Below, one piece after another: positions 40,598 through 46,653 of a stretch of 64,000 bases of DNA. Source of the stretch: Lacrimispora celerecrescens. Its GTDB lineage: Bacteria > Bacillota > Clostridia > Lachnospirales > Lachnospiraceae. The DNA is taken from positions 62,001 to 126,000 of the forward strand of contig NZ_JPME01000008.1 of NCBI RefSeq assembly GCF_000732605.1, in the 5' to 3' direction. The translations under genes were made by a program, and so were the position numbers. The stretch's first letter is position 1, and each line of letters starts with the position of its first letter. The notes under the pieces are model-generated. The model saw only the letters and a list, made by a program, of their open reading frames with translations. It had not been told where the DNA came from and did no database searches.

Positions 40598-43576
40598 CTA
40601 TTCTAATCTCATACTTTCTCTATCTGAACGCTTACCGGATTGTACCAGAGCCGATCTTGCCTTATCACAGCAATCTTCAAAATCTTTGTCCTGCGCCTCG
40701 ATCATGGCAAAAGCGGCGTTAATCCAAAATAGAGGCTCCTTCTCATTTCCCATAAGTTCCTGGGTTAAAACTTTTGTAATCCGCTTTAGCTTTTGTTCCA
40801 TATCGATGCTCCGGATATTTTTGCACAGTACCATTGCTTCATGTACACCGTTTAAACAGATGATATCATCTTCCCTGAAAAAACGCTTTAAGCATTCCAC
40901 ATAAGGAGCAAAAAACGGTTTCTCTGTCTTAAAGCCTTTTTTGCTTTTCCCTTCCGGCCCCTGGATCTCAAATAAAACCAGGGCAGAAGGCTGGAAGCGG
41001 CGCCGCATCACATAAGCCTCCATCATGGAAACGGCGGCATGGCGGTCGGGCAGCTTCTCAAATGAAAGATCTCTTCCGGAAAGCCTCAGCACATCTCCCA
41101 GCATTTTCTGAGAGTCTTCAAGCTGCTGGCGCTGCTCCATCTGCTCCGTAGCATCCCTTACCGCTCCATAGTACAAACGGTGCTCGTCCTGCTCCCTTAA
41201 AAAGAATACGCGAATATGTACCCACATCAGTTCCCCGCTTAGACGGTACTGCCGGAAAATACCTTCCCCTCCCCGGATCGGGTTGCTGTATGCGTTCTCA
41301 AATATATTCAAAACCCAGTCTCTGTCATCTTTATAGATTCGGTTTAAGAGAAACCACCTTCGTTCCTCCATATCCGACGGATTATCCCCTGTTATGCGGT
41401 AATATTCCTGATTTACTCTGAGAACCTCGCACCGGTCCTCATACACTTCATACAGGGCGATTGCCCCAAGCATGTTATTTAACATCGCCTCACTGGTGAT
41501 GTTCTCATTAAATAAATCCTCCAGTTTCAGCTGCCCCAGCTGGCGGGCCTGAATCCCACCGTAATCTACGCAATCCTCCCGTATCAGGAGCTGCTCCGCC
41601 TCTTCTACCGGAAGCGGTTTATAATAATAATATCCCTGCCCGTAAATACAGCCGATATTTCTTAAAAAATCTACCTGATCCTTTGTCTCGACCCCTTCTG
41701 CAATGATCTTCATCTGCATGACCCTTGCCATCCTCACAATGGTCTCCAAAATCCCCATTCCCCGGCTCTGGCTGTTCTCATTCATATCCAGGAATTTGGT
41801 GTCGATCTTAATGACATCAACATTGACATCCTTAAGCATGTTAAGAGAGGAGTACCCGCTTCCAAAGTCATCCATAAACACCGGAAAGCCTGCCCTGCGC
41901 AGATCCTCCAGTACCCTTTGCATCTTATCATCATCCTCTGCATAGGCGCTTTCCGTTATCTCGATTTCTAAGAATCTTGGATCGATCTCATATCGGTCCA
42001 CCAGTTCCTTGAATTTCTCCACAACATCAATGGCATAGATATCCATGCGGGACATATTAACAGAAATGGGGATCAGTTTTTTCCCGGCCTTGCCCCATCT
42101 GTTTAACTGCCTGCATACCATCTCCCAGATATAAATATCCAAATAAGTAATAAACCCATTCTGTTCTAAAAGCGGTATGAACTCTCCTGGGGAAATCAGT
42201 CCGCGTAAGGGATGCTTCCATCTAACCAGGGATTCCAGACCGATGATCTTGCCTGTAAGCATATTGCACTGGGGCTGAACGTAAAAAATAAACTCTTTCT
42301 TTTCCAGGGCGCTTTGTATTTCTGAGAGAAGGATCTGATCATTTTCCATCTTCTGTTTCATGCCAGGATCATACCAGCCTATTCTCTTGGCATAATTGCC
42401 TTTTACGGAGTTAAGTGCGATCGCTGCTCTGTCATACATCATACTGACCGAAAGGCGGCGGTCCTCGATCCGGTAGACCCCAAATGCCGGAAGAAATCCT
42501 GCATTTCCGCCATATTGTCTGGCATAGTAATTGATCTCGCCTTCCAGGCTTTTCAATATGGATATGTCTTCCGGAAGGATGACAACAAAATCATCACCAC
42601 CCATATACCCTGCTATGGAACCATGCAGCAGTTCCAAGGACTTCAAATATTTTCCAATCTTTATCAGGAAGCGGTCCCCTTCCTCTTCTCCATACCATTC
42701 ATTGAAAAGCTTAAAATGCTCAATGTCAATGGCCACCATAAAATATCTTGTGCCGGGTTGGTTTTTCAAAAGCTGCTCCGCTTTCTCAAAAAAAGGACCG
42801 TAACGGAAAAGCCCTGTCATGGAATCTGTTTCTTCCCGCTTTTCCTTAAGCTTTTTCTTTTCTTCCTCTTCCTGTTTCCTTCTGCTGTCGATATCCTGGA
42901 TATAACACATAATAATAGGGTCCGCACAATCCCCGCACCGGAACAAAACGGCAATCACTCTGATCCAGCAATAATTCCCGTCCACCATCAGCCTGCGGAA
43001 TTCTCCCCTGATGATCCTTCCGCTTGCATGAAGACGCTCAAGTAAGGTAGGCCCATCCCAGAATTCCAAAAACTTCTCTCTGTCTTCCGGGTGGATCATG
43101 AAATTCGCCACCTCAAGACACATGGAATCCAACTGTCCTTCTATCTTTGGAATCCTGAATTTATCTTTCTGGTGAAACAGGATCCTATAAAAATTTGCTG
43201 CAATGTTCACTTCAAAAAGTTCATCATAAACGGTGTTGTCCGTCAGATGATAAAAAAGATTCTTATTCTTCTCATCCACCGGCCGGAACATAATAAGCTT
43301 GCATCCGTCGTGGCCGGGCCAGTCAATTGTGGCTGAGGATACATCCATCCAAAGCTCTGAGGCAGAATTATATAATATCACATGCCCTGACTTTCCCCTT
43401 GTACCAGGACAGTCTTTACAGGGGTCCAGTCCTTTTCCGATCCCCTGAAAACAATACATTCCTTCTCTTAAATCCGGATAATATGATTTAGCCGCATTAT
43501 TGAGATAAATGATTCTGTAATCCTGGTTAACTATGTAAATACCGGCTTCTTCATTTTCAGCCGACATAAGATTCAT
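40598..43576 (-). CDS. PAS-GGDEF-EAL-PAS signalling protein with C-terminal degenerate cyclase domain
   Basis: About 992 residues, cytosolic. It metabolises or senses cyclic di-GMP. Order: PAS domain (near 5-95), second PAS (about 120-240), short coiled coil, GGDEF domain with the signature GYMGGDDFVVI (about 260-415), EAL domain (about 425-675) with LESLVRW in place of EAL, then ISVNMSRMDIY, EIEITESAY, MDDFGSGYSSLNML, and EGVETKDQ. A third PAS (about 705-830) and a GGDEF-like fold without its signature close the protein. The frame extends to 43660, but a promoter overlaps that part, so the ATG at 43576 is preferred; it is an approximate choice. Confidence 0.85.
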   Translation of the reverse strand: MNLMSAENEEAGIYIVNQDYRIIYLNNAAKSYYPDLREGMYCFQGIGKGLDPCKDCPGTRGKSGHVILYNSASELWMDVSSATIDWPGHDGCKLIMFRPVDEKNKNLFYHLTDNTVYDELFEVNIAANFYRILFHQKDKFRIPKIEGQLDSMCLEVANFMIHPEDREKFLEFWDGPTLLERLHASGRIIRGEFRRLMVDGNYCWIRVIAVLFRCGDCADPIIMCYIQDIDSRRKQEEEEKKKLKEKREETDSMTGLFRYGPFFEKAEQLLKNQPGTRYFMVAIDIEHFKLFNEWYGEEEGDRFLIKIGKYLKSLELLHGSIAGYMGGDDFVVILPEDISILKSLEGEINYYARQYGGNAGFLPAFGVYRIEDRRLSVSMMYDRAAIALNSVKGNYAKRIGWYDPGMKQKMENDQILLSEIQSALEKKEFIFYVQPQCNMLTGKIIGLESLVRWKHPLRGLISPGEFIPLLEQNGFITYLDIYIWEMVCRQLNRWGKAGKKLIPISVNMSRMDIYAIDVVEKFKELVDRYEIDPRFLEIEITESAYAEDDDKMQRVLEDLRRAGFPVFMDDFGSGYSSLNMLKDVNVDVIKIDTKFLDMNENSQSRGMGILETIVRMARVMQMKIIAEGVETKDQVDFLRNIGCIYGQGYYYYKPLPVEEAEQLLIREDCVDYGGIQARQLGQLKLEDLFNENITSEAMLNNMLGAIALYEVYEDRCEVLRVNQEYYRITGDNPSDMEERRWFLLNRIYKDDRDWVLNIFENAYSNPIRGGEGIFRQYRLSGELMWVHIRVFFLREQDEHRLYYGAVRDATEQMEQRQQLEDSQKMLGDVLRLSGRDLSFEKLPDRHAAVSMMEAYVMRRRFQPSALVLFEIQGPEGKSKKGFKTEKPFFAPYVECLKRFFREDDIICLNGVHEAMVLCKNIRSIDMEQKLKRITKVLTQELMGNEKEPLFWINAAFAMIEAQDKDFEDCCDKARSALVQSGKRSDRESMRLE

Positions 43577-43630
43577 AAGCCCCCGCCTCTCCTGTATCAC
43601 ATTATCTGCGACCATATAAATTATTGTAAT

Positions 43631-43660
43631 ATTATAGTATGAAAAGTCTATTTCCGTCAA
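43631..43660 (-). promoter_or_regulatory. Sigma-A promoter of the GGDEF/EAL gene
   Basis: TTGACG (43660-43655), an 18-base spacer and TATAAT (43636-43631) on the minus strand. Transcription would begin near 43624, which excludes the most upstream start of the GGDEF/EAL frame. Confidence 0.65.
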
Positions 43661-43777: not shown

Positions 43778-44638
43778 TTACCGGAGAGCGCGCAGCTCCT
43801 CTGTCATCTCATGAGAAAGGGTGAATCTTCCTACGTAACCGACTTCCCCTGTCATCAGCACGCCGCCATCCGGTTCAATCTCCACTTCAAGCACGCCTCC
43901 CGGCATGTGCACGTACATCTTAGGATCTGTAAGCCCCATGCGGTATGCCGCACCGGCGGCCGCGCAGCCGCTGGTTCCTGATGCAAGGGTATATCCCGCT
44001 CCCCGCTCATAAATTTCAATTTCAATATTGGTCCTGTCCACAACCTTTAAAAGCTCTGTATTGATCTTTTCAGGAAAATAATCGGCTGTTTCCGAATGCT
44101 TTCCGATTCGGCAGGCCAATTCCTTTGATATGTCGTTCAGCCAGATGACGCAGTGAGGATTGCCAATGGTCACACAGGTGACCCGGTAAGGAATGCTTCC
44201 AAACATCATGGTTTCATTGAGTACCTCTCTCCTTGGCCCGGTAACAGGAATCTCATCGCTGTAAAAGCTTAATTTTCCCATGGAAACCTTTATTCTGGTC
44301 CCGGTCTCATTCAAGTACTGGATGGTCTGCTGCCCGCTTAGTGTATTGACAATAAAACGGTTTTTCTGCACGTATCCGGCATCCTTTAAGTATTTCCCAA
44401 AGATCCGGACCCCGTTGCCGCTTAATTCCGCTTCACTTCCATCGGGATTTAAAATCTTAAGTTCCAGCTTATCCTGCCCCAGAATCGGACCTACTAAAAG
44501 TCCGTCAGAACCTACTCCAAAATTCCGGTTGCAGATCAGCCGGACACTCTCCTCTGTCAGCTCCAGTTCATTTTTATTGGGATCAAAAATCAGATAGTCA
44601 TTGCCCAGTCCATGGTATTTCTCCAGCGTGATATTCAT
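43778..44638 (-). CDS. Diaminopimelate epimerase-like protein lacking both catalytic cysteines
   Basis: 286 residues with the complete DapF fold: YHGLGNDYLIFDPN, FGVGSDGLLVGP, GNPHCVIWL and EIYERGAGYTLASGTSG are aligned family motifs. The two catalytic cysteines are both serine: Ser73 in ELSGNGVRIFGKY (codon AGC) and Ser220 in TLASGTSGC (codon TCA). A canonical DapF is present at 26016-26831, so this copy is free to differ. It overlaps the Ddl-like gene upstream by four bases (ATGA), so both are made together. A racemase, a lyase or an inactive binding protein are possible; function is unknown. Confidence 0.85.
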   Translation of the reverse strand: MNITLEKYHGLGNDYLIFDPNKNELELTEESVRLICNRNFGVGSDGLLVGPILGQDKLELKILNPDGSEAELSGNGVRIFGKYLKDAGYVQKNRFIVNTLSGQQTIQYLNETGTRIKVSMGKLSFYSDEIPVTGPRREVLNETMMFGSIPYRVTCVTIGNPHCVIWLNDISKELACRIGKHSETADYFPEKINTELLKVVDRTNIEIEIYERGAGYTLASGTSGCAAAGAAYRMGLTDPKMYVHMPGGVLEVEIEPDGGVLMTGEVGYVGRFTLSHEMTEELRALR

Positions 44639-45657
44639 GATAAAACTCCTTTCCCGTGTCTCGCAATATCCTCACATAATTCATAATATGAAATTCCGGC
44701 AGCCTTAGCCTCTTGTGGAAGAAGACTATAAGGTGTCATTCCCGGCAGCGTATTAGCCTCCAGACAGTAAAGACTGCCATCTTCCTCCATAAGGAAGTCC
44801 ACCCTGGAGTAATGGCCAAGTCCCAAAGCGTGATGGACCTTTAAAGCCATAACGCCCATGGCTTCCTCTTCTTTTTCTGTGAGCCTAGCCGGACAGATTT
44901 CCTCTGTCATGCCTGCCTGATACTTATTTTCATAGTCATAAAACCCTGCCTTTGGTATGATCTCAATTGGAGGAAGTGCCCTTTCTCCCAGGATTCCAAC
45001 AGAAAATTCCCTGCCAATAATTTTCACTTCCGCCAGTATCCGGTTTTCATAAGCAAAGGCAGAATCAAGGGCCTGTTCCCATTGTTCCTCTTTATCCACC
45101 ATGGTAATACCTACGCTGGATCCACAGCCGCATGGCTTTACCACACAGGGAAAAGTAAATGGCTCCAAAGGCTCCCCTTTCGTATAAAGACGCCAATCCG
45201 GTGTTGGTATGCCTGAAGCTTTCATCAGGAGTTTTGCCATAGGCTTATCCATGGCTTTTAGGCACCCCTCATAACTGGTTCCAGTATAAGAAATGCCATA
45301 GGCATCAAAAACAGCCTGTATCTGCCCATTTTCCCCCGCTCCGCCGTGCAATGCCAAAAATACAACATCTGCCTTACTGCAGATTTCAATTACCCGGTTT
45401 CCTATAAATCCTTCTCCCTTTCGCCCTTCGCTTAAGCGGTCAAGCTCCGGAACCTTTTTTCCGATTTCCCAGGAAAGGTCTGTACCATCTTTAAGGCTTT
45501 TAAAGCAGACAGTTTCTCCGTCGGCAACTCCAAGATAAGAATCCAGTAAGTAAACCTCATGCCCATTTTTTATGAATGCGTTTGTGATCATCGCCCCTGA
45601 AGATAATGAGACTTCTCTTTCCGGGCTGTAACCGCCCGCCAACACGACTATTTTCAT
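44635..45657 (-). CDS. D-alanine--D-alanine ligase family protein (ATP-grasp)
   Basis: About 340 residues. Motifs are VVLAGGYSPEREVSLSSG, VFLALHGGAGENGQIQ, DKPMAKLLMKASGIPTP, PCVVKPCGCGSSVGI, EFSVGILG, and SRVDFLMEEDGSLYCLEANTLPGMTPYSLLPQEA. All fit D-Ala-D-Ala ligases, which join two D-amino acids for peptidoglycan. Start ATG at 45657 after AAGGAAG. It is coupled to a DapF-like gene, an unusual partner; a specialised D-amino-acid ligase is therefore possible beside ordinary Ddl function. Divergent from an AraC-type regulator. Confidence 0.9.
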   Translation of the reverse strand: MKIVVLAGGYSPEREVSLSSGAMITNAFIKNGHEVYLLDSYLGVADGETVCFKSLKDGTDLSWEIGKKVPELDRLSEGRKGEGFIGNRVIEICSKADVVFLALHGGAGENGQIQAVFDAYGISYTGTSYEGCLKAMDKPMAKLLMKASGIPTPDWRLYTKGEPLEPFTFPCVVKPCGCGSSVGITMVDKEEQWEQALDSAFAYENRILAEVKIIGREFSVGILGERALPPIEIIPKAGFYDYENKYQAGMTEEICPARLTEKEEEAMGVMALKVHHALGLGHYSRVDFLMEEDGSLYCLEANTLPGMTPYSLLPQEAKAAGISYYELCEDIARHGKGVLS

Positions 45658-45801
45658 TCTTGTCTTCCTTCTGTTCATGCATATTTATTTTATATATTCA
45701 TTATATACAGCACTATTTATCATTTCCATCAATATAATGCTTTTTTTATTGCAAATTATGTTGTATTATAAAAGGCAGTACATAGGAAGGATACGATTGA
45801 C

Positions 45802-46653
45802 ATGGATAACTATGAAAAGCGGGGATATTTAAACAGTGATTTCCGGCTGTTTCATCTGACTGATACAAAAAAACAGGATTTTGAATACCATTATCATGAT
45901 TTTGATAAAATCATCATATTCATCCGGGGATCCGTAACTTACCGGATCGAAGGTTGTGCTTATAAACTGAAGCCTTATGACATCATACTGGTCCGCCATA
46001 ACGATATTCATAAGCCTGACATCGACCCGTCGGTGCCTTATGAAAGGATCATCGTCTATCTTTCCCCCGGTTTCTTACTGGCTTACCGATCCGACAGCTA
46101 TGATTTGAGCACCTGCTTTCAGAAATCAAAAGAGCTTCACTCCCACGTCCTGCGGATTCATTCCATGGAAAAGAGCGGCATATATCGAACATTGGCGAAC
46201 CTGGAATATGCCTGTACCCATGACGGATATGCCAGGGATTTATACTGCCAGGTGGTTTTTCTGGAATTCATGATCCAGTTAAACAGGGCATCTCTGGCCA
46301 ATCGGGTCCAATACCTGCCCCCTTCCACCGGTGACCGGCGCATTTTAGGTATTATGGAATATATAAACAATCACTTGACGGAGGAGATAAGCGTAGAGAC
46401 GATTGCAGAGTCCTGTTATATCAGCCGTTATCACCTGATGCACTTATTCAAAGGGGAAACCGGCTACACTCTGTTTGATTATATCACGGAAAAACGTCTG
46501 GCATTGGCAAGAGATCTTTTAAAAACAGGAATGCCAGTTACCGAAGCATGTTTTGCCAGCGGCTTTAAAAACTACTCAACGTTTTTCAGGGCCTATAAAA
46601 AACATTTTCACTCTTCACCTTCAGAAGCCGTAAAAGAACATGGAAATTTATAA
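45802..46653 (+). CDS. AraC family transcriptional regulator with N-terminal cupin
   Basis: 283 residues. The N-terminal cupin sensor has FEYHYHDFDKIIIFIRGSVTYRIEG and LKPYDIILVRHNDIHKP. The C-terminal AraC DNA-binding pair is ISVETIAESCYISRYHLMHLFKGETG and PVTEACFASGFKNYSTFFRAYKKHF. It is divergent from the Ddl/DapF-like pair with 144 bases between starts, so it may control them. The ligand is unknown. Confidence 0.9.
   Translation: MDNYEKRGYLNSDFRLFHLTDTKKQDFEYHYHDFDKIIIFIRGSVTYRIEGCAYKLKPYDIILVRHNDIHKPDIDPSVPYERIIVYLSPGFLLAYRSDSYDLSTCFQKSKELHSHVLRIHSMEKSGIYRTLANLEYACTHDGYARDLYCQVVFLEFMIQLNRASLANRVQYLPPSTGDRRILGIMEYINNHLTEEISVETIAESCYISRYHLMHLFKGETGYTLFDYITEKRLALARDLLKTGMPVTEACFASGFKNYSTFFRAYKKHFHSSPSEAVKEHGNL

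Follow-up and report, generated by a model that had tools for sequence, protein, structure and literature searches.

The 64,000-nucleotide stretch of DNA analysed here (the window) encodes a paralogue of diaminopimelate (DAP) epimerase, P0001, with serines in place of both catalytic cysteines. We tentatively favour the reading that it is a cysteine-free DAP epimerase isozyme over that of a non-catalytic DAP-binding protein. P0001 belongs to a widely spread DapF subfamily in which both catalytic cysteines have become serine and the DAP-binding pocket is retained. In the window its gene comes second, after ddl, in a ddl-dapF(S/S) operon that shares its control region with a facing AraC regulator, and relatives of this regulator stand before DAP and peptidoglycan-precursor genes. 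We infer that the Ser/Ser protein binds DAP and still epimerises it, acting as an auxiliary, thiol-independent isozyme beside the canonical DapF and a meso-DAP dehydrogenase (Ddh), and in some other lineages it may be the only DapF. More speculatively, Tyr8 and Tyr216 may aid Ser73 and Ser220 in proton transfer, and the advantage may be resistance to oxidation; the Cys/Cys DapF of C. glutamicum is oxidation-sensitive according to the accessible text of PMC5296763.

The gene of P0001 (43778..44638, minus strand) encodes 286 residues. Its codon 73 is AGC and its codon 220 TCA, both specifying Ser, as the sequence-only reading had it without naming the strand; translated from the plus strand, the same interval runs into stops in that frame. 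With Ser73 and Ser220, P0001 lacks the two catalytic cysteines of DapF. The canonical Cys/Cys dapF of the same genome (26016..26831, minus strand), our comparison, keeps both (Cys72 and Cys210), again in line with that reading, and has no operator in front of it. By profiles and Foldseek, P0001 has the DapF fold over the full length of the family: it matches PF01678 at 174.2 bits and TIGR00652 at 224.7 bits (cut-off 114.65), and its AlphaFold model (pLDDT 93.5) finds the DAP epimerase 9mro as top PDB match (TM 0.89). P0001 is not matched by the CntK model NF033599 (E up to 0.001), which speaks against a histidine racemase, and PADLOC matches neither P0001 nor the adjoining ligase P0002, so a defence system is rejected. 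A scan of six sources for RNA families gave only three tRNAs, which lie in the window. The genome (5.0 Mb, 99% complete) holds two DapF homologues, both inside the window, and one Ddh above cut-off; an extra epimerase is not needed there, because canonical DapF and Ddh are present, and this counts against the epimerase reading. After the operon, the window encodes a large GGDEF/EAL-type protein (40598-43660, named by eye), and a gene of this type likewise follows the operon in most loci read in the window genus, as well as in g34 and g47.

The pocket counts in favour of catalysis. In C. glutamicum DapF, alanine mutants at eight DAP-contact positions (N15, N74, N85, N159, N194, E212, R213, and T223) lose activity almost completely, as the accessible part of PMC5296763 reports. 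P0001 retains all eight contact residues (N13, N64, N75, N160, N193, E211, R212, and T222). Across 148 distinct sequences of the family, N13, N64, N193, and R212 are invariant, position 222 is always Thr or Ser, and E211 (147 sequences), N160 (143), and N75 (142) are nearly so. Y8, C36, and Y216 are family-specific at 1.00, which argues against decay; G50-P51, I79-F80, Y89, and E208 further set the family apart from canonical DapF. The near-invariant DAP contacts and these family-specific residues, found in one clade, favour a working epimerase. TIGR00652 accepts Ser/Ser and C/S proteins alike far above its cut-off (P0001, L169, L238, L043, and L163), so such proteins are likely to bear the name diaminopimelate epimerase in databases with no evidence that they are active.

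The Ser/Ser DapF occurs in 25/25 genomes searched in the window genus. Among the Lachnospiraceae, 69 of 397 genomes match at E <= 1e-55 and 67 hold clade members, G371 and G430 having been dropped as on reading they had a Cys/Cys match only; the count of 67 includes seven genomes with residues unread (G160, G273, G419, G420, G421, G451, and G457) and some that hold variants of Ser/Ser. A class-wide draw gave five matches in 393 genomes at E <= 1e-62, two of them outside the Lachnospiraceae, while 15 of 116 genomes searched have no match to P0001 whatever. A pattern scan of named genomes yielded at least 566 confirmed relatives. The best 80 of these, which we analysed, include Desulfosporosinus and MAGs assigned, by their record labels, to Spirochaetes, Planctomycetes, Poribacteria, Halanaerobiales, and Deltaproteobacteria; the motifs of these relatives outside the Lachnospiraceae are close to SEAEKSGNG and GYTLASGSSS. 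In a tree of 78 rows (our trees are quick ones), the 61 non-Cys/Cys sequences make up one side of a single branch (SH-aLRT 92), with the C/S protein of genome G090 near the base of the group. Ser/Ser homologues are thus not "rare and scattered", the outcome on which the sequence-only reading would have given up its idea, since they form a single clade and occur throughout the genus. A sequencing error at the Ser codons is excluded as well, because Ser/Ser recurs in all 25 genomes of the genus and in 128 of the 148 distinct family sequences.

Site 73 is Ser in 139 of the 148, Gly in five, Ala in three, and Cys in one; site 220 is Ser in 137, Thr in seven, Asn in two, and Gly in two. Besides the 128 Ser/Ser sequences there are 19 with one Ser replaced and one C/S (G090), the only exception to the absence of Cys from both sites (147/148). 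All 19 single-Ser variants lie within the 126 sequences grouped as Lachnospiraceae and other, and Ser/Ser is kept in 21/21 sequences outside the Lachnospiraceae (a hand grouping from record labels). On a FastTree of the 148 sequences, site 73 takes at least five changes, which include the Cys of G090, and site 220 takes at least four. The codon of Ser73 is AGY in 136/148, one base from Cys, and the sole TGT is that of G090.

That Gly or Ala at 73, or Thr, Asn, or Gly at 220, occurs in 19 of 126 sequences, many with an intact pocket, disfavours an epimerase, because an acid or base role is not to be expected of Gly, Ala, or Asn. The same observations speak for a non-catalytic DAP-binding pseudoenzyme that would sense or buffer DAP, or partner canonical DapF or the AraC regulator, and so tune peptidoglycan-precursor supply: the serines were repeatedly lost in Lachnospiraceae with the pocket often intact, and Cys stayed away although one base would restore it. 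We take this option, which the sequence-only reading had raised as a non-catalytic sensor, to be a serious contender, without calling it probable. There is precedent for a role without catalysis: an E. coli DapF in which Ala replaces both cysteines is still able to bind RppH and to stimulate it (PMC4227774, as far as its accessible text goes). Engineered serines also count against catalysis: Cys-to-Ser activity of HisR was "greatly reduced" (PMC11602996), and Cys-to-Ser mutants of related enzymes are in general strongly impaired (PMC12039745), each as given in the accessible part of the source. On the other hand, the 21/21 Ser/Ser sequences outside the Lachnospiraceae weigh against a protein without catalysis and favour the epimerase, as do genomes in which the Ser/Ser protein is the only DapF and that apparently need an epimerase.

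To gauge such sole-copy status, 24 genomes were checked for a further DapF (a set of 22 plus G673 and G692). Within the reach of our searches, ten of the 22 hold Ser/Ser only and ten also Cys/Cys, G090 has C/S and A/S only, and G480 yielded fragments with residues unread. G673 and G692 likewise have Ser/Ser only, giving 12/24 sole-copy genomes, a count for which absence in MAGs is weak evidence and completeness figures are at hand for G673 (99%), G075 (97%), and G692 (98%) only. Among the 12, DapB is above cut-off in nine, MurE carries DNPR in ten, and Ddh is above cut-off in one (G692); G478 and G481 have EDAG instead of DNPR in MurE and no DapB above cut-off. Of ten sole-copy genomes scanned for LysA, four have it above cut-off (G465, G467, G471, and G476). 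The DNPR criterion overlooks the window genome's own MurE (L272 in G000), which has DNSR where DNPR is usual. Eight of the 12 (G673, G075, G465, G466, G469, G471, G475, and G476) combine DapB and a DNPR MurE with no Ddh over cut-off; they seem to make L,L-DAP and to build DAP into the wall, no second way to meso-DAP was found in them, and these apparently DAP-making genomes favour the epimerase.

Outside or at the edge of the Lachnospiraceae, no shared neighbour was seen by eye among the 14 loci listed, as for a self-sufficient enzyme; a binding protein is the less expected there. Single neighbourhoods are worth recording. In Desulfosporosinus the Ser/Ser gene is preceded by a dapA-like gene (PF00701; L163:1500-2375), and in four other loci outside the Lachnospiraceae (L172, L179, L182, and L191) GNAT-like genes (by eye) occupy the upstream position. 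Elsewhere, a Ser/Ser gene stands beside cbiMQO-like transporter genes (L040:6911-9647) and a G/S gene beside CobW-type GTPases (L042:3093-5201), both by eye, perhaps hinting at a metal link, though as single cases.

Other genomes pull away from DAP epimerisation. All 13 Lachnospiraceae genomes checked have a second, higher-scoring DapF, and the eight of these that were read (G290 and G361 among them) are all Cys/Cys, which disfavours the epimerase. So does the retention of the Ser/Ser gene in G692, where Ddh makes meso-DAP, and in G478 and G481, where DapB is missing, MurE has EDAG, and DAP synthesis seems absent. These three genomes could instead point to another substrate or chemistry, such as a DAP-like diamino diacid (e.g. 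lanthionine or cystathionine) or a one-base reaction such as elimination. The fold superfamily of the P0001 structure matches also takes in dehydratases (Foldseek), and in G090 a PLP-enzyme domain (PF00291, cysteine-synthase-like by eye) is fused to an A/S DapF domain (L053:3692-5302), both of which fit this idea. No Cys/Cys DapF was matched in G090, whose C/S DapF (L043) lies near lysA. Nevertheless, we consider other chemistry unlikely, given that the DAP recognition residues are retained and that DAP and wall genes are prominent among the operator-linked neighbours described below.

P0002, a Ddl-type D-Ala-D-Ala ligase paralogue (NF002378), is encoded at 44635..45657 on the minus strand and overlaps P0001 by four bases; this overlap and the divergent AraC gene, both pointed out beforehand, are indeed there. 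Its ORF has an alternative start at 45678, but the start at 45657 is better placed, with GAAGGAAG before it. P0002 is a member of the family by NF002378 (297.4 bits, cut-off 243) and TIGR01205 (274.8 bits, cut-off 245.65). An alignment read by eye shows the Glu of EREVS, the Lys of VKP, the GSS loop, the KY motif, Arg-x-Asp, EANT, and the Ser of YSLLP, all of which we take to be catalytic residues. The window genome has five PF07478 matches, two of them strong (226 and 169 bits), and P0002 is one of these two. It shares 31% identity with the genome's other Ddl and 52% with the Ddl of L254, which sits in an AraC-divergent dapA-ddl pair of a genome without a Ser/Ser match in the Lachnospiraceae search.

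A P0002 homologue adjoins the Ser/Ser gene in 24/85 loci, many with flanks of just 1.5 kb, and in five of the 80 best of at least 566 relatives, in both cases always in the window genus or genus g47; inside the window genus the figure is 22/25 genomes. Ddl as an obligate partner of the Ser/Ser DapF is rejected on the 24/85 count. Of the coregulated couple that the sequence-only reading had proposed, the conserved Ser/Ser clade thus stands, but the Ddl partner is local. Co-regulation of ddl through the divergent AraC regulator and its conserved operator is likely; the pair as such is unsupported as a functional unit, because Ddl is local and the AraC operator is found at a broader range of genes for DAP and peptidoglycan precursors. 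The further proposal, that the two proteins together produce and ligate an unusual D-amino acid, can draw on the adjacency of their genes in the 22 genus genomes and on a P0002 that is distinct from the other Ddl and nearer to that of L254. We nonetheless judge it very improbable: the DAP-contact residues make the DapF pocket DAP-like, P0002 keeps the features of a D-Ala-D-Ala ligase, adjacency fails in most Ser/Ser loci, and an AraC-linked Ddl without an adjoining Ser/Ser gene exists in L254.

The proposed regulator of the module lies at 45802..46653 on the plus strand, divergent from the operon, and has the AraC_binding and HTH_18 domains of AraC/XylS proteins. Operators of the AraC type are direct repeats within the target promoter, spaced by roughly two helical turns, and the predicted main operator TAATGCTTTTTTTATTGCAAATTATGTTGTATTATAA (45735..45771, plus strand, score 32.4), which stands before araC, has TGC in three copies, the outer two of which are 21 bases apart. 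On the minus strand, an inverted half-site AAATAGTGCT (45709..45718, by eye) precedes TATAAT (45700..45705), which, compared by eye with the family consensus, is likely to be the operon's -10 box. A mirrored half-site to the left of the main operator, at a distance of 25 or 26 bases, gives 42 matches in 90 anchored regions. The main operator is the only site in the 64-kb window scoring above 8, and no site above 4 turned up in 103 kb of the window genome around dapB, ddh, ddl, murE, the window flanks, and two other ATP-grasp or Mur-type matches.

A divergent AraC gene adjoins 40 of the 59 Ser/Ser genes with larger flanks and so is a broader partner than Ddl. The consensus operator TaaTGCTttntATATTGCAAATAaTGCTnTaT stands before araC in 71/74 Ser/Ser loci of a set thinned at 90% AraC identity, a count that is descriptive because the matrix was trained on those loci. 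The other locus groups are independent of training. AraC homologues found by sequence alone occur in 90/397 genomes at E <= 1e-60, and 38 loci away from Ser/Ser genes were read (18 of 20 regions of one set plus 20 of another, omitting G124, G200, G448, and G461, which by coordinates also lie away from a Ser/Ser gene or have none). Neighbours were named by eye; profile scans then covered ten of them, together with the short ORFs, the DapA of L163, and one SDF symporter. Divergently from araC, the first gene is a canonical dapF in five loci, dapA in three (once followed by ddl), a cystathionine-lyase-like gene in five, AGCS in four, an SDF symporter in three, uppP in one (L289; 213.0 against a cut-off of 217.5), and a short ORF in three; the remaining 14 have another gene or nothing divergent. 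At the score passed by 0.1% of 3,000 shuffles, the operator precedes araC in 4/5 dapF, 3/3 dapA, 5/5 lyase-headed, 4/4 AGCS, 3/3 SDF, 3/3 short-ORF, and 1/1 uppP loci and in 4/14 of the others, the weakest passes being L293 (7.6), L302 (11.9), and L291 (16.7). It is absent before araC in the dapF-linked L304 and in ten of the 14 other loci; among those ten, L242 and L248 have a strong site elsewhere and L255 a lyase-dapF2 row on the same strand.

In this way the operator marks a broader group of genes for DAP and peptidoglycan precursors. There is good support for this theme, as there is for the ligand pocket, and the AraC protein probably regulates the module. The DAP-themed operator at dapF, dapA, lyase-headed, and uppP loci favours the epimerase reading. 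Regulation in trans is not general, because without AraC in the locus an upstream operator was found for only 1/53 Ser/Ser genes (L061, near a contig end) and 1/38 canonical dapF genes (L230 in G190). In the AraC tree the label changes 12 times, against 32 in shuffles, and Ser/Ser-linked loci are not one clade, so the divergent neighbour was swapped several times.

Two kinds of operator-linked locus bear on the alternatives. In the lyase-headed group, dapF2 and murE follow in L237, L244, and L253 and are absent in L294 and L301; the operator before such a row lends some weight to other chemistry. In the row itself (L237:4658-8268, L244:286-4280, L253:176-4098, and L255:5375-8891), a cystathionine-lyase-like gene is joined by a divergent Cys/Cys dapF with the motif IGCGTG and then by a third gene, which is murE in L237 and, by eye, in L244 and L253; the row is possibly a route to another wall diamino acid. 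The short ORFs take the Ser/Ser gene's place beside AraC: L247:5165-5485 (107 residues) and L291:3305-3736 (144) are weakly similar to the N-terminal half of DapF, and L292:3526-3936 (137 residues between stops, no Pfam match) is doubtful. Short DapF-like ORFs beside an AraC gene with operator suit a binding role, but they may simply be decaying genes.

Weighing these lines together, we return to the cysteine-free epimerase. In a fuller account, which we hold possible rather than probable, a natural Ser/Ser cofactor-independent epimerase, perhaps helped by the invariant Tyr8 and Tyr216, would have replaced canonical DapF in several lineages, while the Lachnospiraceae would keep it under a dedicated DAP regulator and some of them would have made it a protein that only binds. 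Catalysis and a binding role may each be true in different lineages. Known enzymes of the DapF kind work with an active-site cysteine thiolate (PMC12039745, accessible text), and DapF has been called an antibacterial target (PMC5296763, accessible text). A conserved clade without either cysteine would either widen the known chemistry or mean that several genomes have a key step of their DAP pathway mis-annotated. The database label of an ordinary epimerase is unproven for Ser/Ser DapF. Moreover, the operator offers a starting point for work on a regulator that serves DAP and cell-wall precursor genes in Lachnospiraceae. Searches of one open-access library, with subscription papers mostly outside its scope, found no description of the Ser/Ser clade or of the operator and its regulator.

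The closest known systems include canonical DapF (TIGR00652, EC 5.1.1.7): P0001 shares its fold, full length, DAP-contact residues, and a score above the equivalog cut-off, and differs from it in the serines at both catalytic sites, the family-specific residues, and a separate tree group. P0002 likewise matches the Ddl family above cut-off, but is a second, AraC-linked copy with 31% identity to the other Ddl. The DapF-like fold is also that of CntK and O-ureidoserine racemase (Foldseek), the latter using two cysteines. HisR has this fold too, and HisR and CntK use two cysteines, unlike P0001 (both points from the accessible part of PMC11602996). E. coli DapF as RppH activator (PMC4227774, likewise in part) offers a DapF that works without catalysis, although there it is the canonical enzyme moonlighting. 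Finally, the H. influenzae DapF variants C73S and C217S (2q9h and 2q9j, by their PDB titles) carry the same substitution at one site each; these are engineered single mutants, whereas in the P0001 family serine at both sites is natural and conserved.
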